From the NCBI RefSeq assembly GCF_006334915.2, contig NZ_VDMA02000027.1:1-64000 (forward strand): a stretch of 64,000 nt of DNA, given 5' to 3'. The DNA is from Microbispora catharanthi (lineage in GTDB: Bacteria; Actinomycetota; Actinomycetes; Streptosporangiales; Streptosporangiaceae). The notes under the pieces are model-generated. The model did not search any database. It had not been told where the DNA came from and worked only from the letters and a program-made list of their open reading frames with translations. The translations under genes were made by a program, and so were the position numbers. Shown here piece by piece: positions 17,287-39,205 of this stretch (position 1 is its first letter; each line of letters opens with the position of its first letter).

Positions 17287-17979
17287 ATGCAGGGACTGAT
17301 TCAGGTAGCCGGTGTCATCGACCAGGCCGAGGCGGACCTGATCCGCGAGGAAGGCGCGGACTGGCTCGGCTTCGCCTTGCGGCTGCCGGCGAAGAACGAG
17401 GACCTGTCCGAGGAGGAGGCCGCGGCGATCGTCAAGGAGATCCAGCCGGAGCACAGGGGCGTCGTGATCACCTACCTGACCGACGCCGAGGAGATCAAGA
17501 CCTTCTGCGAGGAGCTGGGCGTCACCGCGATCCAGCTGCACGGCGACGTGACGGGCGAGGAACTGCGGAAGCTGCGGCGCATCGCCCCCGACCTGTACGT
17601 GCTCAAGAGCCTCGTGGTCAAGCAGGACAACCTCGACGAGCTGGCCAAGATCGTGGACGAGGCGGCCGAGTGGGTCGACATGTTCATCACCGACACCTTC
17701 AACCCGGCCACCGGTGCCAAGGGCGCCACCGGACTGCTGCACGACTGGTCGATCAGCGCGGAACTGGTCCGGATCTCACCCAAGCCGCTGATGCTCGCCG
17801 GCGGGCTGAACCCGGACAACGTCGCCGCCGCCATCGCCGAGGTTCGCCCGGCCGCGGTCGACGCGCACACCGGCCTGGAGGACCCGGTGACGCGTCGCAA
17901 GGACCGGCTGAAGGTGCGCAAGTTCGTCCAGGAGGCCCGCAGGGCCTTCGCCCAGCTGGAGGCGGGTGAGAAGGCATGA
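17287..17979 (+). CDS. TrpF-like (phosphoribosylanthranilate isomerase-like) protein lacking the catalytic Cys
   Basis: A 230-residue TIM-barrel protein. The barrel blocks match TrpF in order: GADWLGFALRLP, VTAIQLHGDV, MFITDTFNP with Asp136 at the general-acid position, GAKGATG, LMLAGGLNPDNV and VDAHTGLEDPVTRRKD. The N-terminal KICG of true PRA isomerases, whose Cys is the general base, is replaced by QVAG (Ala8), so ordinary tryptophan-pathway activity is unlikely. ATG 17287 follows AAAGGCGGG. It overlaps the UPRT gene by ATGA, hence is translationally coupled, and opens the NRPS/C-glycosidase locus. No trp genes are nearby. I infer a role in handling a ribose-5-phosphate adduct in this pathway; the exact reaction is unknown. 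Confidence 0.8.
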   Translation: MQGLIQVAGVIDQAEADLIREEGADWLGFALRLPAKNEDLSEEEAAAIVKEIQPEHRGVVITYLTDAEEIKTFCEELGVTAIQLHGDVTGEELRKLRRIAPDLYVLKSLVVKQDNLDELAKIVDEAAEWVDMFITDTFNPATGAKGATGLLHDWSISAELVRISPKPLMLAGGLNPDNVAAAIAEVRPAAVDAHTGLEDPVTRRKDRLKVRKFVQEARRAFAQLEAGEKA

Positions 17980-18659
17980 CCATCACGGCGACGCAGGCGG
18001 CCGGCACCACGAACGACACCGTGCATCTGCTGCCGCAGACCAGGCAGTTGCGGGCGCTGCACACGATCATCCGCGACCGGAACGCCGACCTGGAGCGCTT
18101 CGTCACCACGTCGGGCCGGATCATCCGCCAGCTCATCGAGACGGCCATGGATCTCCTGCCGTTCGAGCCGCTCGACGTGCAGACCCCGGTGGGGCGCACC
18201 TACCACGGCCTGCGGCCGGCCAGGCCGATCTGCGGGGTGTCCGTCCTGCGCGCCGGGGAGAGCATGGAGCACGAGCTGCGCGTGATGTCGCCGGGAGTGC
18301 GGATCGGCAAGATCCTCATCCAGCGGGACAAGGTCACGAAGCTGCCGCGGCTGTACTACTCCGCGCTGCCCGCGGACATCGACCGGCACAGCGTGCTGCT
18401 GCTGGACCCGATGCTGGCCACCGGCGGGACCGCGCTGGCCGCCATCGAGGTGCTGCTCGCCCACGGGGTCGCGGAGGACGACATCGTCTTCGTCACCCTG
18501 CTGTCGGCGCCGGAGGGCATCGACGCGGTCCACGCGCGTCACCCGAACCTGCGGATCGTGACCTCGGCCATCGAGGAACGGCTGAACGAGAACGCCTACA
18601 TGATCCCCGGCATCGGCGACTTCGGCGACCGCTACTTCGGTACGGACGTCCCACGTTGA
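17976..18659 (+). CDS. upp: Uracil phosphoribosyltransferase (MinD-like, cluster-associated)
   Basis: A 227-residue type I phosphoribosyltransferase converting uracil and PRPP to UMP. The PRPP loop LLLDPMLATGGTALAA begins at about residue 142, with Asp144, and the UPRT-specific uracil-binding end PGIGDFGDRYFGT is at about 209-221. The start overlaps the TrpF-like stop as ATGA. A salvage enzyme inside a secondary-metabolite operon is unusual. In the minimycin cluster the UPRT MinD protects the producer by raising the UMP pool against the toxic C-nucleotide, and that role fits here. Whether it replaces or duplicates a housekeeping upp elsewhere cannot be seen. An IS605 relic follows directly after the stop. 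Confidence 0.88.
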   Translation: MTITATQAAGTTNDTVHLLPQTRQLRALHTIIRDRNADLERFVTTSGRIIRQLIETAMDLLPFEPLDVQTPVGRTYHGLRPARPICGVSVLRAGESMEHELRVMSPGVRIGKILIQRDKVTKLPRLYYSALPADIDRHSVLLLDPMLATGGTALAAIEVLLAHGVAEDDIVFVTLLSAPEGIDAVHARHPNLRIVTSAIEERLNENAYMIPGIGDFGDRYFGTDVPR

Positions 18660-18921: not shown

Positions 18922-21900
18922 ATGATCACCACTCCAGTCGCTGAAGCGAGGCGGGAATCACCCGAGGACACCTGTCTTCCCGATCTGCTCGACGCTCAGG
19001 CCCGGTCGCGCCCCGATGCCACGGCGGTCGTCTGCGGAGAGCGGCGGCTGACCTTCCGCGAGCTCGCGGAGGGCGGCGCGGCCCTCGGCGGGCACCTGCG
19101 GGAGCTCGGCGTGGACCTCGACGAATGTGTGGGGCTCTTCGTAGAGCCGTCGATCGACCTGATGGTCGGCGTATGGGGGATCCTGCGGGCCGGCGGCGCC
19201 TACCTGCCGCTGTCCCCCGAATACCCGGAAGAGCGCCTCCGCTACATGATCGAGGACGCCGGCGTGCGGGTCGTCGTCACCCAGGACGAGCTCGTGGACA
19301 GGCTGACCGAGCTGGCGCCCGCCGGGACGCGGATCGTCACCCTGAAGGACGCGGAAGGCTTCGCGGGTTCGCCCGTAGGCGACCGGCACTCCGACCGCCA
19401 CCCGGGCCTGCGTCCCGGCAACCTCGCGTACGTCATCTACACCTCCGGCAGCACCGGCAAGCCGAAGGGCGTGATGATCGAGCACCGCAGCATCGTCAGC
19501 CAGATGCGGTGGCTGCACGCCGGCTACGGGATCGACCAGGACAAGGTCATCGTGCAGAAGACGCCGATGAGCTTCGACGCGGCGCAGTGGGAGATCCTCG
19601 CGCCGGTCTGCGGCTCCGTGGTCGTCGTGGGCCCGCCCGGGGTCTACCGGGACGCCGAGCGGCTGATCGACGTCATCAGGACGCACGACGTCACCACGCT
19701 GCAGTGCGTTCCGACGCTGCTGACGGCGCTGCTGGACACCGAGGAGCTGCAGAGCTGCACCTCGCTCACGCAGGTCTTCACCGGCGGCGAGGTCCTGTCC
19801 AAGGTGCTGGCGACGAGCTTCTTCGACACCATGCCCGGGTGCGCGCTGGTCAACCTGTACGGCCCCACCGAGTGCACGATCAACTCGTCGGCGTACACCG
19901 TGGACCCGGCGACCGTCGACGAGGGCCCGAACGCGATCTCGATCGGGGCGCCGGTCGACCACACCGACTACCACATCCTCGACCTGGCCGGGGCGCCTGT
20001 GGCCGTCGGCGAGATCGGCGAGCTGTTCATCGGAGGCATCCAGGTGGCCCGCGGCTACCTGCACAAGCCCGAGCTGACCGCCGAGCGGTTCGTGGACAAC
20101 CCGCTCGGCGAGGGGAGGCTGTTCAAGACCGGTGACCTCGCGTACTGGAACGCCGACGGCACCGTCCAGTTCGTCGGCCGCGCGGACAACCAGGTCAAGC
20201 TGCGGGGGTTCCGGGTCGAGCTGGACGAGATCAAGCTGGCCATCGAGACCCACGAGTGGGTCAAGCACGCCGCGGTCATCGTCAAGGACGACCCGCGCAC
20301 CGGGTTCCAGAACCTGATCGCCTGCGTGGAGCTGAATCCCAAGGAAGCGGCGCTGATGGACCAGGGCAACCACGGCGCCCACCACCAGTCCAAGGCCAGC
20401 CGGCTCCAGGTCAAGGCGCAGCTGTCCAACGCCGGGGTCCGGGACGCCGCGGAGCTCGACGGCAGGCCGGTGATCGACCTGCCCGGTAAGCAGGCGACCG
20501 CGCGGCAACGCGGGCTGGCGTTCGCCCGCAAGACCTACCGGTTCTACGAGGGCGGGGAGGTCGGCCGGGGCGACATCCTGAAGCTGCTGGACAGGAAGGC
20601 CGAGGGCGCGCGCTCCCGCGGCCTCGACACCGTCGGCCTGGAGGATCTCGGCGAGATCCTGCGCTACCTCGGCCAGCACCTCAGCGAGGAACGCCTGCTG
20701 CCGAAGTACGCGTACGCCTCGCCGGGGGCGTTGTACGCGACGCAGCTCTACCTGGAGATCAACGGGATCGGCGACCTCCGGCCGGGCTTCTACTACCACC
20801 ACCCGGTGGAGCACCGGCTCGTGCTGATCGGTCCGGCCGCCGGGGGAGCGGAGCCTCGGGTGAGGCTGCACTTCGTCGGCAAGAAGCGGGCGATAGAACC
20901 GGTCTACAAGAACAACATCCGCGAGGTCCTGGAGATCGAGACCGGCCACATGGTCGGCCTGTTCGAGGAGGTGCTGCCCGACTACGGCCTGGACATCAGG
21001 CCCCTGGAGTACGCGCCGGCCACGAAGGACCACCTGGACTGCGCCGCCGAGGACTACTACCTCGGCACGTTCGAGCTGGTCCCGTACGCGGGGCCGCGGC
21101 AGGACGAGGTCGACCTCTACGTCCAGGCGCATCCCGGGAAGATCGCCGACCTGCGGGCGGGCCAGTACGCCTACGAGAACGGGCGGCTGCGGCTGATCTC
21201 CGACGAGCTCATCCTCAAGAAGCACGTCATCGCGATCAACCAGCAGGTCTACGACCGGTCGAGCCTCGGGATCTCGGTGATCAGCAGGAACGCCGAGGAC
21301 TGGCTGCACTACATCGACCTGGGACGCACGCTGCAGCACCTGTCGATGAACGACGTCAACATCGGGTTCATGTCGTCCGGATACAGCTCCAAGTCCGGCG
21401 ACGACCTGCCCTCGGCGCGCCGGATCGACGGCATCCTCCGCTCCAACGGCCGGCCCACCGGCCCGTCCTACTTCTTCATCGGCGGCCGCGTGAGCGACGA
21501 GCAGCGGCTGAGCGAGGGGATGAAGGAGGACTCGGTCCACATGAAGGGACCGGCGGAGATGATCAGGGACGACCTGATCAACTTCCTGCCGGACTACATG
21601 ATCCCGAACAAGGTCGTCGTGCTGGACCGGCTCCCGTTCACGGCGAACGGGAAGATCGACGTCAGAGGGCTGGCCGAGTCCGACGCGACGAACGTGGACA
21701 ACGCCGACCGGCCGTACGTCGCGCCGCGGACGATGACCGAGCGCAGGATCGCCGAGCTGTGGAAGAAGGCGATGAAGCGGGAGACCGTCTCGGTGGAGGA
21801 CGACTTCTTCGCCTCCGGTGGCAACTCGCTCATCGCCGTCGGGCTGATCAACAAGATCAACCGGGAGTTCTGCGGCTCGCTGCCCCTCCAGGTGCTGTTC

Positions 21901-23019
21901 GAGTGCCCCACCATCGAGAAGCTCGCCCGGCGGCTCGACGGAACCGAGTCCGAGGCGTGCTCCCGGCTCGTGCCGCTGCAGCGGGAGGGCTCCGACCAGC
22001 CCATCTACTGCTGGCCGGGCCTCGGTGGCTACACGATGAACCTGCGCACGCTGGCCGCCAGGATGGGCGTCACCCAGCCCTTCTACGGAATCCAGGCGTA
22101 CGGCATCAACCCCGAGGAGGTGCCGTACGCGACCATCGGCGAGATGGCGGCCGAGGACGTCAAGGCGATCCGGCGGCTGCAGCCGTCCGGTCCCTACACG
22201 CTGTGGGGATACTCGTTCGGCGCGCGCGTCGCGTTCGAGGCCGCCTACCAGCTGGAGCAGGCCGGTGAGCGGGTGGAGCACCTCTTCCTGATCGCACCGG
22301 GCTCGCCGAAGGTCCATCTGGCGGGCACGTCCGAGCACGAGCGCGAGGCGGGTTTCGGCAACAAGGCGTACGTGACGATCCTCTTCTCGGTCTTCGCCGG
22401 CACGATCACCGGGCCGCTGCTGGAACGGTGCCTGGCCGAGGCCGTGGACGAGGAGAGCTTCGCCGCCTTCATCCACCGCAACTTCCCCGACCTGGACATC
22501 GACCTCGTACGCCGGATCATGCGGGTGGTGGGCGAGACCTTCGAGTTCAGTTACACCTTCCGTGAGCTGGCCCAGCGAAGGATCGACGCACCGATCACCA
22601 TCTTCAAGGCCAGGGGCGACGACTACTCGTTCCTGGAGAACAGCAGCGGCTATTCGGCGACGGCCCCGGTCGTCGTCGACCTGGAAGCCGATCACTACGG
22701 CCTGCTCAAGGAACCGGAGATCGACGAGCTGGTCGCAGCCATCAGGGATCGTCTCGGGACGCACTGTAAGGAGATCATCATGCCGCACGTCAGCATCAAG
22801 CACTTCCCGGTCCCCCTTACCGAGCAGCAGCACTCCGACCTGGTCGCCGCGGTGACCAAGGCCATGACGAGCGCCTTCGGCTGCGAGGAGGGCTCGGTGT
22901 CGATCATTCTGGAGCCGGTCGCGAAGGAGCAGTGGGACGAGAAGGTCTACATCCCGGAGATCCTCAACCAGAAGCACAAGCTGAACAAGCTGCCGAACTA
23001 CGGCCCGGCCGCGAACTGA
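18922..23019 (+). CDS. indC: Indigoidine-synthetase-type NRPS (A-Ox-T-TE) with fused tautomerase domain
   Basis: A 1365-residue single-module NRPS with no condensation domain. The A domain has TSGSTGKPKG near 175, FDAAQWEI, NLYGPTEC near 310, GRADNQVKLRGFRVE near 418 and LPFTANGKID near 903. By hand alignment its specificity code reads D-A-W-Q-F-G-L-I-N-K, close to the Gln code of BpsA/IndC. An FMN-dependent Ox domain is inserted at about 515-770 (YASPGALYATQLYLE). The carrier serine is Ser969 (GGNS) and the TE has Ser1098 (GYSFG) and His1258. BpsA-type enzymes end near residue 1282. Here codon 1282 is TGT and the frame runs on into a 79-residue 4-oxalocrotonate-tautomerase domain from Met1287. 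The start ATG 18922 follows GGGGGAGG. The PsuG-like gene starts 9 bp downstream. Confidence 0.93.
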   Translation: MITTPVAEARRESPEDTCLPDLLDAQARSRPDATAVVCGERRLTFRELAEGGAALGGHLRELGVDLDECVGLFVEPSIDLMVGVWGILRAGGAYLPLSPEYPEERLRYMIEDAGVRVVVTQDELVDRLTELAPAGTRIVTLKDAEGFAGSPVGDRHSDRHPGLRPGNLAYVIYTSGSTGKPKGVMIEHRSIVSQMRWLHAGYGIDQDKVIVQKTPMSFDAAQWEILAPVCGSVVVVGPPGVYRDAERLIDVIRTHDVTTLQCVPTLLTALLDTEELQSCTSLTQVFTGGEVLSKVLATSFFDTMPGCALVNLYGPTECTINSSAYTVDPATVDEGPNAISIGAPVDHTDYHILDLAGAPVAVGEIGELFIGGIQVARGYLHKPELTAERFVDNPLGEGRLFKTGDLAYWNADGTVQFVGRADNQVKLRGFRVELDEIKLAIETHEWVKHAAVIVKDDPRTGFQNLIACVELNPKEAALMDQGNHGAHHQSKASRLQVKAQLSNAGVRDAAELDGRPVIDLPGKQATARQRGLAFARKTYRFYEGGEVGRGDILKLLDRKAEGARSRGLDTVGLEDLGEILRYLGQHLSEERLLPKYAYASPGALYATQLYLEINGIGDLRPGFYYHHPVEHRLVLIGPAAGGAEPRVRLHFVGKKRAIEPVYKNNIREVLEIETGHMVGLFEEVLPDYGLDIRPLEYAPATKDHLDCAAEDYYLGTFELVPYAGPRQDEVDLYVQAHPGKIADLRAGQYAYENGRLRLISDELILKKHVIAINQQVYDRSSLGISVISRNAEDWLHYIDLGRTLQHLSMNDVNIGFMSSGYSSKSGDDLPSARRIDGILRSNGRPTGPSYFFIGGRVSDEQRLSEGMKEDSVHMKGPAEMIRDDLINFLPDYMIPNKVVVLDRLPFTANGKIDVRGLAESDATNVDNADRPYVAPRTMTERRIAELWKKAMKRETVSVEDDFFASGGNSLIAVGLINKINREFCGSLPLQVLFECPTIEKLARRLDGTESEACSRLVPLQREGSDQPIYCWPGLGGYTMNLRTLAARMGVTQPFYGIQAYGINPEEVPYATIGEMAAEDVKAIRRLQPSGPYTLWGYSFGARVAFEAAYQLEQAGERVEHLFLIAPGSPKVHLAGTSEHEREAGFGNKAYVTILFSVFAGTITGPLLERCLAEAVDEESFAAFIHRNFPDLDIDLVRRIMRVVGETFEFSYTFRELAQRRIDAPITIFKARGDDYSFLENSSGYSATAPVVVDLEADHYGLLKEPEIDELVAAIRDRLGTHCKEIIMPHVSIKHFPVPLTEQQHSDLVAAVTKAMTSAFGCEEGSVSIILEPVAKEQWDEKVYIPEILNQKHKLNKLPNYGPAAN
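22780..23019 (+). CDS. 4-Oxalocrotonate tautomerase-like domain with its own start signals
   Basis: Within the NRPS frame, AAGGAG (22768-22773), six bases and ATG 22780 form a complete initiation signal. From there 79 residues read as a 4-OT family protein: MPHVSIKHFP, then LTEQQHSDLVAAVTKAM, SAFGCEEGSVSIILE and KEQWDEKVYIPEI. In 4-OT enzymes the catalytic base is Pro1, which must be N-terminal after Met removal. Pro1288 can meet this only if translation starts at 22780, not in the fusion. I therefore annotate an overlapping product of 79 residues as possible. It could help the imine/enamine tautomerisation of the oxidised glutamine product. Independent translation is inference. Confidence 0.45.
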   Translation: MPHVSIKHFPVPLTEQQHSDLVAAVTKAMTSAFGCEEGSVSIILEPVAKEQWDEKVYIPEILNQKHKLNKLPNYGPAAN

Positions 23020-23028
23020 GGGGCGACG

Positions 23029-23970
23029 ATGACCCGGGAGCATGGGCGCGTCCCGCTGGTTTACAGCGAGGAGGTCGCGGACGCACTCGCCGAGAGGCGG
23101 CCGGTGGTGGCGCTGGAGTCGAACGTCATCACCCACGGCCTGCCCTATCCGGACAACGCCGCGACCGCGCGGAAGGTCGAGGACGCGGTCCGGGCGGGCG
23201 GCGCGATCCCGGCCACGATCTGCGTCGAGGGCGGCCAGATCAAGGTCGGGATGACGGACGAGGACGTCGAGCGGTTCGCCTCGACGCCCGGCATCCCCAA
23301 GGTCAGCAGCCGGGACCTGCCGGTGATCCTGGCCCAGGGCGGGCTCGGCGCGCTGACGGTGGCCAGCTCGGTGGTGGCGGCCGAACTGGCCGGCATCCCG
23401 TTCTTCTCGTCGGCCGGCATCGGCGGCGTGCACCGGGGCGCGGAGAAGACCATGGACGTCTCCTCCGACCTGATCCAGTTCACCCGGTCGAAGGTGGCCG
23501 TCGTCTGCGCCGGGGCCAAGAGCATCCTCGACCTGAACCTGACGATGGAGTATCTGGAGACCCACTGCGTGCCGGTGGTGTCGTACCGGTCGGACGACTT
23601 CCCCGCGTTCTACTGCGTCTCCAGCGGCATCCGCAGCCCGCAGCGGCTGGACGACGAGCGGGTGATCGCGCGGGCGGTGGAGAACCACTGGGCGCTCGGC
23701 AACAACAGTTCGTTCCTGATCACCACGCCGGTGCGGGAGGAGGACGCGATCGACGCGTCCGAGGTGGACGCGGCCATCGCCGGTGCGATGGCCGCCGCCG
23801 AGCGGGACGGCGTGCGCGGCAACGCGATCACCAAGTATCTGATGCGCGCCGTGGACGCGGCCACCGAGGGCCGGTCGTCCAAGGCGAACATGTCCGTGCT
23901 CGTCAGCACGGCGGAGGTCGGCGGGCGCCTGGCCGCCGCCCACGCGCGGTATCTCGAAGAGACCGCCTGA
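23029..23970 (+). CDS. indA: IndA/PsuG-type pseudouridine-5'-phosphate glycosidase (C-glycosynthase)
   Basis: A 313-residue protein of the PsuG/IndA family. The conserved blocks are [15 protein letters not shown] with Glu30, [17 protein letters not shown] with Asp147, [19 protein letters not shown] with the Schiff-base Lys164, and DDFPAFY. The blocks differ from housekeeping PsuG in places ([15 protein letters not shown] in place of ANPIPEED), as expected for a pathway enzyme. PsuG joins ribose-5-phosphate and a nucleobase reversibly through a C-C bond. Homologues sit in the indigoidine (IndA), minimycin, showdomycin and alnumycin (AlnA) clusters. It starts 9 bp after the NRPS stop, with GGGGCGA upstream, and is the last gene before a strong terminator. 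No HAD phosphatase (IndB-type) is encoded here. Confidence 0.9.
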
Positions 23971-35593: not shown

Positions 35594-38500
35594 ATGCCTG
35601 GAGACCGGTGGCAGTTCTGGGTGGACCGTGGCGGGACGTTCACCGACGTCGTCGCCCGGCGCCCGGACGGGCGGCTGGTGACGCGCAAGCTCCTGTCGGA
35701 GAACCCCGCCCGCTATCCCGACGCGGCGGTGGCGGGCATCCGCGCCCTGCTGGACGTCCCCGCGGGCGAACCGATCCCGGTCGAGCGGATCGAGTCGGTG
35801 CGGATGGGCACCACGGTCGCCACCAACGCACTGCTGGAACGCCGGGGCGAGCGCACGGCGCTGGTGATCACCAAGGGGTTCGGCGACGCGCTGCGCATCG
35901 GCTACCAGAACCGCCCGCGCATCTTCGACCGGCGGATCGTGCTGCCGGAGATGCTCTACGAGCGCGTGGCCGAGGTGGACGAGCGGATCACCGCCGACGG
36001 CACGGTGCTCCGGCCGCCCGACCTCGAAGGGCTCGCGCCGCGGCTGCGGCGGCTGCGCGAGGAGGGCGTCCGGGCGGTCGCGGTGGTCTGCCTGCACAGC
36101 CACCTGCACCCGGCGCACGAACGGGCGATCGGGAGCCTGGCCAGGCGCTCGGGCTTCGCGCAGGTGTCCTGCTCCAGCGAGGTCAGCCCGCTGATGAAGC
36201 TGGTGCCGCGCGGGGACACCACCGTGGTCGACGCCTACCTTTCTCCCGTCCTGCGGCGGTACGTCGAGGCGGTGGCCCGGCAACTGCCCGGCGTACGGCT
36301 GATGTTCATGCAGTCGAACGGCGGGCTGGCGGAGGCCGGGCACTTCCGCGGCAAGGACGCGATCCTGTCCGGCCCGGCCGGCGGCATCGTCGGCATGGCG
36401 CGCATGTCCCGGCTGGCCGGTCTCGACAAGGTGATCGGCTTCGACATGGGCGGCACCTCGACCGACGTGTCCCACTACGCGGGCGCGTACGAGCGGGTGG
36501 TCCAGACCCAGGTGGCCGGCGTGCGGCTGTCGGCGCCGATGATCGCCATCCACACGGTGGCGGCGGGCGGCGGGTCCGTCCTGCGTTTCGACGGCGGGCG
36601 ATACCGGGTCGGCCCGGACTCCGCGGGGGCCGACCCCGGCCCGGCCTGCTACCGCAACGGCGGCCCGCTGTGCCTCACCGACGCCAACGTGATGCTCGGC
36701 CGCATCCAGCCCGGCCACTTCCCCGAGGTCTTCGGCCCGGACGGCGACCTGCCGCTGGACGCGGATGAGGTGCGGCGGCGGTTCGCCGAGACGGCCGCGG
36801 ACATCCGCGGGCGCACCGGCGACGAACGCGACCCCGAGCAGGTCGCCGAGGGCTACGTGCGGGTCGCGGTCGAGAACATCGCCAACGCGATCAAGCAGAT
36901 CTCCGTGCGGAAGGGCCGTGACGTCACCGAGTACGCCCTCACCACGTTCGGCGGGGCCGGAGGGCAGCACGCCTGCGCGGTGGCCGACGCGCTCGGCATC
37001 CGCACCGTGCTGGTGCCGCCGATGGCGGGCGTGCTGTCCGCCCTGGGCATCGGGCTCGCCGACACGACCGTGATGCGGGAGCAGTCGGTCGAGGCCCGGC
37101 TGGAGCCCGCCGCAATCCGGCGCCTGACCGGCCTCGCCGACACCCTTGAGGTGGCGGCCCGCCGCGAACTGTCCGACGAGGGGGTGCCGGACGGGCGGAT
37201 CCGGGTGACCCGGCGGGTGCGGCTGCGCTACGACGGCACCGACACGTCGCTGCAGGTGGACCTGACCGGGACGGACACGATGGTGACCGCGTTCGAGGCC
37301 GCCCACCTGCGGACGTACTCCTTCCTCATGGACCGGCCGCTGGTCGCGGAGGCGGTCTCCGTGGAGGCGGTGGGCCTGACCGAGCAGCCCGATCTCTCGG
37401 ACCTCGCCTCCGCGGCCCCCGCCGGGGCGCGGACGGCGATCACCGTGCGGATGTACACCGGCGGCGTGTGGCGCGAGGTGCCGCTCTACCGGCGGGAACG
37501 GCTGCGCCCCGGCGACACGCTCAGCGGCCCGGCGATCGTGGCCGAGGCCGACGCGACCACCGTCGTCGACGACGGCTGGCGGGCCGGTGTGACGGCGTAC
37601 GGGCACCTCCTCCTGGAGCGGGAGCGGGCGCGCCCCCGGGCCGCCGGCGTGGGCACCGAAGCCGACCCCGTGATGCTGGAAGTCTTCAACAACCTCTTCA
37701 TGTCCGTCGCCGAGCAGATGGGCGCCCGGCTGGGGGCCACCGCGCAGTCGGTGAACATCCGGGAGCGGCTCGACTTCTCCTGCGCGTTGTTCGACTCCGG
37801 CGGCGACCTCATCGCCAACGCGCCGCACATCCCGGTGCACCTCGGGTCGATGGGCGCGAGCGTCAAGGAGGTGGTGCGCCGCCGGGGCGGCGGGATGCGG
37901 CCCGGAGACGTGTACGCGATCAACGACCCCTACCACGGCGGCACCCACCTGCCGGACATCACGGTCGTCACCCCCGTCTTCGACGACGCGGGCCGGGAGA
38001 TCCTGTTCTTCGTGGCCTCCCGCGGACACCACGCCGAGATCGGCGGGCTGACGCCCGGCTCCATGCCCGCGAGCAGCAGGAGCGTGCGGGAGGAGGGCGT
38101 GCTGTTCGACTGCCGGCTGCTGGCGGACCGTGACGGCCTGCGCGAGAAGGAGACGTGGCGGCTGCTCACCGAGGGGCCGTACCCGTCCAGGGACCCCGCG
38201 ACCAATCTGGCCGACCTGCGCGCGCAGATCGCCGCGAACGCCAAGGGCGTCGAGGAGGTCGGCGCGATGATCGGCCACTTCGGCCTCGACGTCGTGCGGG
38301 CCTACATGCGGCACGTGCAGGACAACGCCGAGAGCGCGGTCCGCGCGGTGATCGACGCCCTCAGCGAGGGCCGCTACCGCTACGAGATGGACTCCGGCGC
38401 CGTGATCTCGGTGGGCGTCTCGGTGGACCGCGCCCGCCGCACCGCGACGATCGACTTCACCGGCACCTCGCCCCAGCTCGGCACCAACCTCAACGCGCCG

Positions 38501-39205
38501 TCGGCCGTGGTCGCCGCCGCCGTCCTGTACGTCTTCCGCACCCTGGTGGCCGACGAGATCCCGCTCAACGACGGCTGCCTGCGGCCCCTGCGCATCGTCG
38601 TGCCCGAGGGGTCGATGCTGGCCCCGGCGTACCCCGCGGCCGTGGTCGCCGGCAACGTCGAGACCTCGCAGGCGATCACCGGCGCGATCTACGCCGCGCT
38701 CGGCGTCCAGGCCGAGGGGTCGGGGACGATGAACAACGTCAGCTTCGGCGACGAAAGGCGCCAGTACTACGAGACCGTCGCCTCGGGGTCCGGGGCGGGA
38801 GACGGATTCGACGGGGCGGCGGCGGTGCAGACCCACATGACGAACTCCCGGCTGACCGACCCCGAGGTGCTCGAATGGCGGTTCCCCGTGCTGCTGGAGG
38901 AGTTCGCCGTCCGGCGCGGCAGCGGAGGTGCCGGACGGTGGCGCGGCGGGGACGGGGCCGTGCGCCGCATCCGGTTCCGTGCGCCGATGACGGTCAGCGT
39001 GCTGTCCGGCCACCGCCGGGTGCCGCCGTACGGCATGGCCGGCGGCGCCCCGGGCGCGCTGGGCGTCAACCGGGTGCGGCGCGCGGACGGAAGCGTCGTC
39101 CATCTGGCGGGATGCGACTCGGCCGGGGTGGAGCCGGGCGACGTGCTGGAGATCGAGACACCCGGCGGCGGGGGATACGGGCCCCCGGACGGCGGCCCCT
39201 CCTGA
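35594..39205 (+). CDS. 5-Oxoprolinase / hydantoinase, fused HyuA-HyuB
   Basis: A 1203-residue cytosolic ATP-dependent amidohydrolase. The HyuA half (about 1-680) has [40 protein letters not shown] and [13 protein letters not shown], the actin-like ATPase motifs. The HyuB half (about 690-1203) has [32 protein letters not shown] and the usual Gly-rich end PGGGGYGPP. The single-chain A+B arrangement is that of eukaryotic-type 5-oxoprolinases, which open 5-oxoproline to glutamate. Related fused enzymes act on hydantoins. ATG 35594 has GGAGGGGG upstream. It is divergent from an MFS gene and followed by a strong terminator hairpin. Confidence 0.92.

Follow-up and report, generated by a model that had tools for sequence, protein, structure and literature searches.

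How can an enzyme that works through its free N-terminal proline do so when it is built into the end of a much longer protein? The question is raised by a gene in a 64,000-nucleotide stretch of Microbispora catharanthi DNA (hereafter the window), whose forward strand encodes at 18922-23019, judging from the open frame and its Pfam matches, a single-module nonribosomal peptide synthetase (NRPS) of the MinA/IndC type with a C-terminal tautomerase (Tau) domain. In the parts of the sources available to us, catalysis in this tautomerase family is attributed to the N-terminal proline (PMC5818174, PMC6389900), yet the published MinA scheme fuses Tau behind the thioesterase (TE), a position in which the proline amine is an amide (PMC8724604). 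We propose, with a probability of roughly 0.8, that the one frame makes two products, namely the NRPS-Tau protein and, from an internal start codon, a free 78-residue Tau with its proline (Pro1) exposed.

The frame runs for 1365 codons without an internal stop and closes with TGA at 23017-23019, as read directly from the sequence. TE together with its C-terminal helix occupies 22000-22764 (Pfam match from residue 1027; the last predicted helix ahead of the linker ends at model residue 245), and a linker predicted to be flexible follows at 22762-22779. This region holds codon 1282, a TGT (Cys) at 22765-22767, and a Shine-Dalgarno-like site, AAGGAG, at 22768-22773 with a duplex energy of -8.2 kcal/mol. 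Six bases (ATCATC, 22774-22779) separate that site from the proposed internal start codon, ATG at 22780-22782, which opens a PptA/YdcE-like tautomerase (PF01361) of Met plus 78 residues (79 codons with Met, 22780-23019); its Pro1 codon is CCG at 22783-22785. These letters stand exactly where a sequence-only reading of the window had placed them when it proposed that a complete tautomerase gene had been joined to the NRPS by loss of a stop codon while keeping its own ribosome binding site.

We collected relatives with a query spanning TE and Tau. A first search of contigs gave 51 loci. Genome searches gave matches in 19 of 250 genomes of the family, 11 of 394 of the class and all four genomes chosen individually, with a further 64 from 392 genomes of a Streptomyces-like genus, 41 from 297 of the family of genome G604, 54 from 297 of the family of G286 and, after the counts had been fixed, 2 from 199 of the family of a Rhizobium genome. 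A plasmid search returned 38 records, six of which were taken into the analysis, and all of these search sets overlap. With 71 extra regions included, the collection came to 242 sequences counting the window, or 219 once those with identical first 600 TE bases had been merged. Among the 219, 57 are fused, 75 have a separate tautomerase gene no more than 900 bases past the TE match (a layout that the sequence-only reading had suggested looking for in relatives) and 87 have none found there; loci from the genome searches, classified separately, comprised 43 fused, 36 separate and 14 without. Codon counts were made on 54 of the 57 fused rows, leaving out L055, L129 and L130, which lack Tau residue 1 and are described separately below, and on 74 of the 75 separate rows, leaving out L110. 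The residue-1 requirement removed no row with an odd residue before the proline, as there was no fused row whose Tau match started at residue 2. L255, a separate gene with a stop before its ATG, and L250-L254 were found later and lie outside the 219. The matches left out were the partial ones in G840, G683, G834, G1421 and G1311, together with G1441:C366 (whose score equals that of C95), G1370 and G1481.

Every one of the 54 fused genes whose Tau N-terminus is complete has kept the proline. Ahead of the proline stands ATG in 33 of them, GTG in 17, TTG in three and CTG in one; in the 74 separate tautomerase genes ATG stands there in 46 and GTG in 28. Wherever the residue at the fused start site is valine, its codon is GTG (17/17), against 33% GTG and 65% GTC among the 537 other valine codons of the same genes. 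Leucine at the site is written TTG in three of four cases; elsewhere in those four genes TTG is used for none of 111 leucines, and in the full set of 54 for 3.0% of 1541. Five separate fused groups use valine, always as GTG, and the chance of this is 0.33^5 = 0.004. As controls for shared ancestry we took other conserved columns within single clades: in a nine-member clade whose site is GTG in eight and ATG in one, only 1 of 22 other conserved valine columns is GTG throughout; in a six-member GTG clade the figure is 0 of 21; and in a three-member TTG clade none of 29 other conserved leucine columns is TTG throughout. The fused alignment has 324 well-filled columns, and in three of them ATG, GTG and TTG together make up 90% or more; two of these are plain conserved methionines and the third is the start site. 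The clade to which the window belongs has kept ATG in 22 of its 23 members. The GTG and TTG bias, taken together with the same-ancestry controls, suggests that the codon is constrained in its capacity as a start and not just in the residue it encodes, and comparison of these sequences strongly supports retention of the internal start across fused lineages.

The Shine-Dalgarno-like site is in agreement with the start codon, on which the case for an internal start mainly rests. Duplex energies were computed with an actinobacterial anti-Shine-Dalgarno tail. The averages are -8.90 kcal/mol for the fused site and -9.21 for the 74 separate tautomerase genes. Two background sets are weaker, 16,700 further in-frame positions averaging -2.94 and 131 further internal ATGs -0.94. 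Values of -6 kcal/mol or below are found in 53/54, 67/74, 12% and 4/131 of these four sets, respectively. A start codon and a ribosome-binding site conserved in frame are the two features that mark an internal start of the Cas11 type; 53 of the 54 fused genes have ATG, GTG or TTG, and 53 have a Shine-Dalgarno-like site of that strength. The five residues preceding the start take 44 different sequences among the 54 genes, and in one four-member clade they read GGLVH, EEGIH, EEEIH and GGPVH while the purine-rich site is unchanged. The 45 bases around the start are predicted to be more open than other segments of the gene (mean z +1.70, with a median of 4.7% of segments as open), as are those around separate tautomerase starts (mean z +1.39, 8.6%).

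The sequence-only reading had also held that codon 1282 was formerly TGA and that a single change to TGT created the fusion. In sister Microbispora the matching codon is AGT, CGT or GGT; it is absent in M. corallina and is a stop in none of those seen. This does not support a recent stop loss at this codon, and we rejected that history. The gene is carried by nine of 14 other genomes of the genus, and in all nine it is fused. Five genomes of the genus also have a second indigoidine-synthetase-like gene each, which is fused in G216 and accompanied by a separate tautomerase gene in G139, G178, G194 and G211. The fused clade of the window has 23 distinct members (support 97) and takes in Saccharothrix, Actinocrispum, Actinosynnema, Sphaerimonospora, Streptomyces and Kitasatospora. 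Identity to the window at four-fold degenerate third positions was calculated for 14 clade members. It is 0.74-0.75 for the two nearest and falls to 0.50-0.59 for the remaining 12, all more distant, where 0.45 is expected at saturation. Since four-fold sites are near saturation and the clade is spread over genera, the fusion is old in this clade, and the change at codon 1282 was not its origin; by this comparison the fusion is older than the genus Microbispora. What holds of the original proposal is therefore the in-frame fusion with its retained start codon and Shine-Dalgarno-like site, and a codon that behaves in relatives as a selected start, but not the recent loss of a stop.

To place the fusions relative to one another we used a FastTree tree of TE containing 216 of the 219 rows, three with a short TE match having been left out. 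The labels fused and not fused require 11 changes on this one tree, compared with 48.2 when the labels are shuffled, and the starred branches alone force three. The fused genes fall into 11 groups on it, and these sequences suggest that the fusion was gained, or lost, on several occasions.

Against a cut-off of 22 bits, the Pfam Tautomerase family (PF01361) reaches 24 bits when the entire protein is scanned and 29.5 bits with Tau alone, and the proline directly follows the methionine (Met-Pro, 22780-22785), as in 4-oxalocrotonate tautomerase/PptA proteins; the NCBIfam PptA equivalog scores 73 bits, below its cut-off of 83. By sequence the closest solved structure is PDB 1gyj (YdcE, E 6.7e-8), against which query residues 2-75 align from its Pro1. 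An AlphaFold2 model of TE and Tau as one chain has a low-confidence linker (predicted local distance difference test, pLDDT, below 50 at model residues 248-253) followed by a beta-alpha-beta domain, so a flexible tether between the two is plausible. Most positions that vary little in one set or the other, for example Pro, His, Lys, Phe, Ser and Trp, are held as tightly in fused Taus as in separate ones, or more so. Two of them, 43 and 47 if Met is numbered 1, vary more among the fused. The overall pattern hints that the attached domain still serves some purpose, for which co-assembly with free subunits would be the reason that we prefer.

Fusion, start codon, Shine-Dalgarno-like site and codon-level constraint are read from the comparison of sequences; for translation from the internal start, Met removal, catalysis and co-assembly we infer the following course. 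Initiation at 18922 would yield the 1365-residue NRPS, which carries the tautomerase covalently at its end; there the proline is an amide and could not serve as a free N-terminal amine. Ribosomes initiating at the internal AAGGAG-N6-ATG (22768-22782) would make the free tautomerase. Proteins that begin with Met-Pro have the methionine removed, and this step would expose Pro1. The step that depends on Pro1 would then fall to the free Tau. It is probably the isomerisation of the oxidised, cyclised glutamine that TE releases, ahead of C-glycosylation by the adjoining Indigoidine_A protein. Tautomerases of this family are oligomers, and for that reason the fused copy could hold free subunits at the NRPS through co-assembly, a part of the model that we consider possible but at rather less than even odds. 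That a tautomerase would suit the chemistry of the oxidised glutamine, as the sequence-only reading had it, is an idea already in print, in the available text on the Tau domain of MinA (PMC8724604).

Shortened Taus offer a comparison with the complete ones. Start and proline both remain in 53 of the 54 complete fused Taus, and 15 of the 16 shortened ones found are without Met-Pro; half-domains were found with a clade-derived pattern and by looking at three of 87 long-tailed rows, so this count may miss other remnants. In L055 (S. microflavus) a shortened in-frame Tau has its Met-Pro replaced (AAHVS), and a complete separate tautomerase lies elsewhere in the genome. In 14 genes from the family of G604, the NRPS ends in a half-tautomerase consisting of the helix only, without Met-Pro and without the second strand. 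Twelve of these (L131, L133-L135, L137-L143 and L209) are followed by a complete separate tautomerase gene, and in most the NRPS stop overlaps the Shine-Dalgarno-like site of that gene; for the other two, L129 and L130, no tautomerase match was found in their genomes. Over all pairs, the half-domain helix differs at 302 codons synonymously and 190 nonsynonymously, compared with 119 and 648 in the 12 residues before the helix and 249 and 248 in a TE stretch. By these counts the helix seems to be under purifying selection, which fits a docking role. We venture a tentative and rather unlikely account of why fusion would have arisen repeatedly. A single gene would supply both an anchor, the attached domain with a dead Pro1, and a catalyst, the free subunits with a live Pro1. 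The two would assemble on the synthetase into one mixed oligomer, which would isomerise the unstable ring of oxidised glutamine before it can dimerise to pigment. In the one clade where it occurs beside separate tautomerase genes, the half-tautomerase helix would be what is left of the anchor, its docking part.

Several observations weigh against the two-product interpretation or limit what can be drawn from the counts. Fisher tests on the codon counts treat related genes as independent and overstate significance, and 16 of the 54 fused genes came in through a search that used the internal-Met peptide as one of six patterns. Many branches of the TE tree are weak (73 of 213 inner branches are open), and the figure of 11 is a reading of one tree. 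The Shine-Dalgarno-like site is nearly explained by the residues encoded in these G+C-rich genes: synonymous shuffles of the linker average -7.76 against the real -8.90, nearly as strong, and the site stands in one reading phase in 47 of 52 cases, which also fits amino-acid choice. The mean proportion of shuffles that equal or exceed the real sequence in strength runs across the 11 groups from 0.06 in the Rhizobium group to 0.88 for L085, with the clade of the window at 0.65. Since the motif alone could follow from amino-acid choice, we rejected it as sole proof of an internal start. Two individual genes belong here as well. L035 (Pseudonocardia acaciae) keeps GTG-Pro in a shortened Tau; the end of its NRPS has GGAGG, an in-frame GTG-Pro-His-Val tautomerase start and an early stop, followed by the Indigoidine_A gene, and it is apparently a decaying fused Tau. 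L014 (6001-6951; Actinocrispum wychmicini), a gene also listed as L124, begins its Tau with CTG and lacks a Shine-Dalgarno-like site (-2.9); its genome gave no second tautomerase match. It is the sole one of the 54 complete fused Taus that lacks both ATG/GTG/TTG and the site, that is, the only long fusion without an internal start signal, a case that the sequence-only reading had named in advance as counting against it. Finally, the presence of the half-helix in two genomes without a tautomerase match speaks against docking as its sole role.

These points bear differently on the other ways in which the locus might be explained. Start codon and Shine-Dalgarno-like site might be undecayed leftovers of repeated recent fusions, with the long protein alone of importance. 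Such an origin would draw on the at least 11 label changes on the tree, by which the fusion appears to have been gained or lost several times, and on the abundance of separate tautomerase genes among relatives (75/219). Yet in the clade of the window four-fold sites have decayed almost to the saturation value while ATG persists in 22/23, and three other clades hold ATG/GTG or TTG where comparable valine and leucine columns drift (1/22, 0/21, 0/29), and we regard leftovers as unlikely. Quite unlikely, too, is a fused domain that works as such without a free N-terminus, the Met, Val or Leu before the proline being kept for packing. The published MinA scheme does have the Tau domain acting within the NRPS, in the text available to us (PMC8724604), and L014 is fused with CTG and no site. 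If packing were the reason, however, it could not explain why valine is GTG in 17/17 and leucine TTG in 3/4, and the family literature cited at the outset places catalysis on the N-terminal proline.

A protease cutting in the linker might also detach Tau from the long protein, and Pro1 would likewise become free. Both the predicted flexibility of the linker (pLDDT <50) and the proline kept in 54/54 are what such cleavage would call for. Proteolysis needs no start codon, yet ATG, GTG or TTG is there in 53/54, and the 44 sequences taken by the five pre-start residues in 54 genes have no obvious common protease site; we consider this very improbable. The idea that codon 1282 is really TGA, misread by a sequencing error between two ordinary genes, has only the short distance of TGT from TGA in its favour. 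It is ruled out, to all intents, by the same open fusion in the other Microbispora assemblies (9/9 of the gene-bearing ones among 14) and in other genera, and by AGT, CGT and GGT in the sister species. Two products from one frame remain the interpretation that we prefer.

Two neighbours of the gene are of kinds found in the minimycin cluster. Directly downstream of the NRPS on the plus strand, at 23029-23970, lies an Indigoidine_A gene, by family a C-glycosidase of the MinB/IndA type (PF04227, E 3e-109). Its upstream neighbour, also on the plus strand (17976-18659), encodes a MinD-like uracil phosphoribosyltransferase (PF14681, E 2e-74), and ahead of that a gene for a TrpF-like protein (17287-17979) overlaps it by four bases. 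The uracil phosphoribosyltransferase and TrpF-like genes are both found upstream of the NRPS in 13/13 other loci of this clade with 6-kb flanks; the TrpF-like protein scores far under the NCBIfam cut-offs for the tryptophan enzyme. No domain of the MinC type (haloacid dehalogenase phosphatase with DUF4243) was seen in the 15 Pfam-scanned translations, which cover part of the open frames of the window and one of which is the Tau part alone. A single partial match to PF14027, which we take to be the present name of DUF4243, lies on another contig of the genome (model positions 42-115 of 340, 28.7 bits, cut-off 27). Indigoidine_A is encoded no more than 700 bases downstream in 35/54 fused, 33/75 separate and 10/87 Tau-less loci and in 3/3 remnant rows. 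Tau accompanies the C-glycosidase often but not always, as 19 of 54 fused genes have no Indigoidine_A there, including two on Rhizobium plasmids. These two, L244 (2950-7002, pAtK84c) and L245 (947-4999, pTiK1_93), are fused NRPS-tautomerase genes with cysteine synthase, a nickel/cobalt transporter and phosphopantetheinyl transferase as neighbours, a cupin being annotated in L245, and with no Indigoidine_A match in the locus. They probably make a different product. A further plasmid-borne fused gene, L246, is carried by pSCL4 of S. clavuligerus.

Within the NRPS, Pfam matches AMP-binding at residues 24-380, AMP-binding_C at 879-911, PP-binding at 942-1005, Thioesterase at 1027-1139 and Tautomerase at 1288-1338. 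Adenylation, thiolation and TE domains thus form a single module, and a long insertion precedes the C-terminal part of the adenylation domain, as in MinA and IndC; about 500 residues separate the two adenylation-domain matches, and Pfam at E 0.001 reported no oxidase family there. The nearest records to the gene are from Microbispora (M. rosea, 98%), and judged by these relatives it is a Microbispora NRPS of the MinA/IndC type. In the genome of the window, the TE-Tau query found no second match with a threshold of E 1e-30, 8 of the 12 candidates having been scored, and the Tau query found no further match at E 0.001. On the minus strand an antisense open frame of 1661 codons (18958-23943) spans nearly all of the NRPS and runs past its end, and most likely owes its existence to G+C-rich codon usage. 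Elsewhere in the window, at 35594-39205, parts of hydantoinase A and hydantoinase B/oxoprolinase are united in one 1203-residue protein.

If the two-product interpretation is true, the hidden start resolves how the small enzyme keeps a free Pro1, and it adds an overlooked gene product where the route to the pigment indigoidine parts from that to C-nucleoside antibiotics. The free enzyme may then have been present in, or missing from, fused constructs employed in vitro or in heterologous hosts without anyone noticing. The locus would also be an unusually clean case, extending over several lineages, of a start codon preserved within a frame.

Fusions of this kind are themselves known, in the portions available of the papers cited here. 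A few NRPSs, indigoidine synthetase among them, carry an added tautomerase motif (PMC5818174); the tautomerase is its own gene in S. albus and is fused in S. chromofuscus IndC (PMC3992020); fused and discrete versions are discussed for myxobacteria (PMC12766979); and the Tau domain of MinA is said to isomerise the TE product for C-glycosylation (PMC8724604). MinA, the minimycin NRPS, and S. chromofuscus IndC resemble the window gene in being single-module NRPSs with a C-terminal tautomerase and an IndA/MinB-type gene in the cluster (PMC8724604, PMC3992020, PMC12766979, PMC5818174), whereas these accounts, in the text available, contain no mention of an internal start or a blocked Pro1. The separate tautomerase genes beside bpsA/indC, for example SSHG_00312 of S. 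albus J1074 (PMC3992020, as far as the accessible text goes), share family, gene order, a Shine-Dalgarno site of their own and an ATG or GTG start. They differ from the fusion in that a stop codon splits NRPS from tautomerase, with the free tautomerase as the sole product. PptA/YdcE of E. coli (PDB 1gyj), closest in sequence among solved structures, is a stand-alone protein. In the literature searched, judged mostly by titles and the openings of abstracts, there was no report of an internal start in tautomerase-NRPS genes. Cas11b is an unrelated protein, but it is likewise the C-terminal part of a long frame, cas8b, made as a free protein from a start inside that frame (PMC11899642, in the part available). 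The Cas11b paper has a section on detecting its peptides by mass spectrometry, whereas the free Tau here is a product predicted from sequence. In-frame internal translation, as in Cas11b, and the tautomerase-NRPS fusion are both already known; their combination appears, within the literature searched, to be new.

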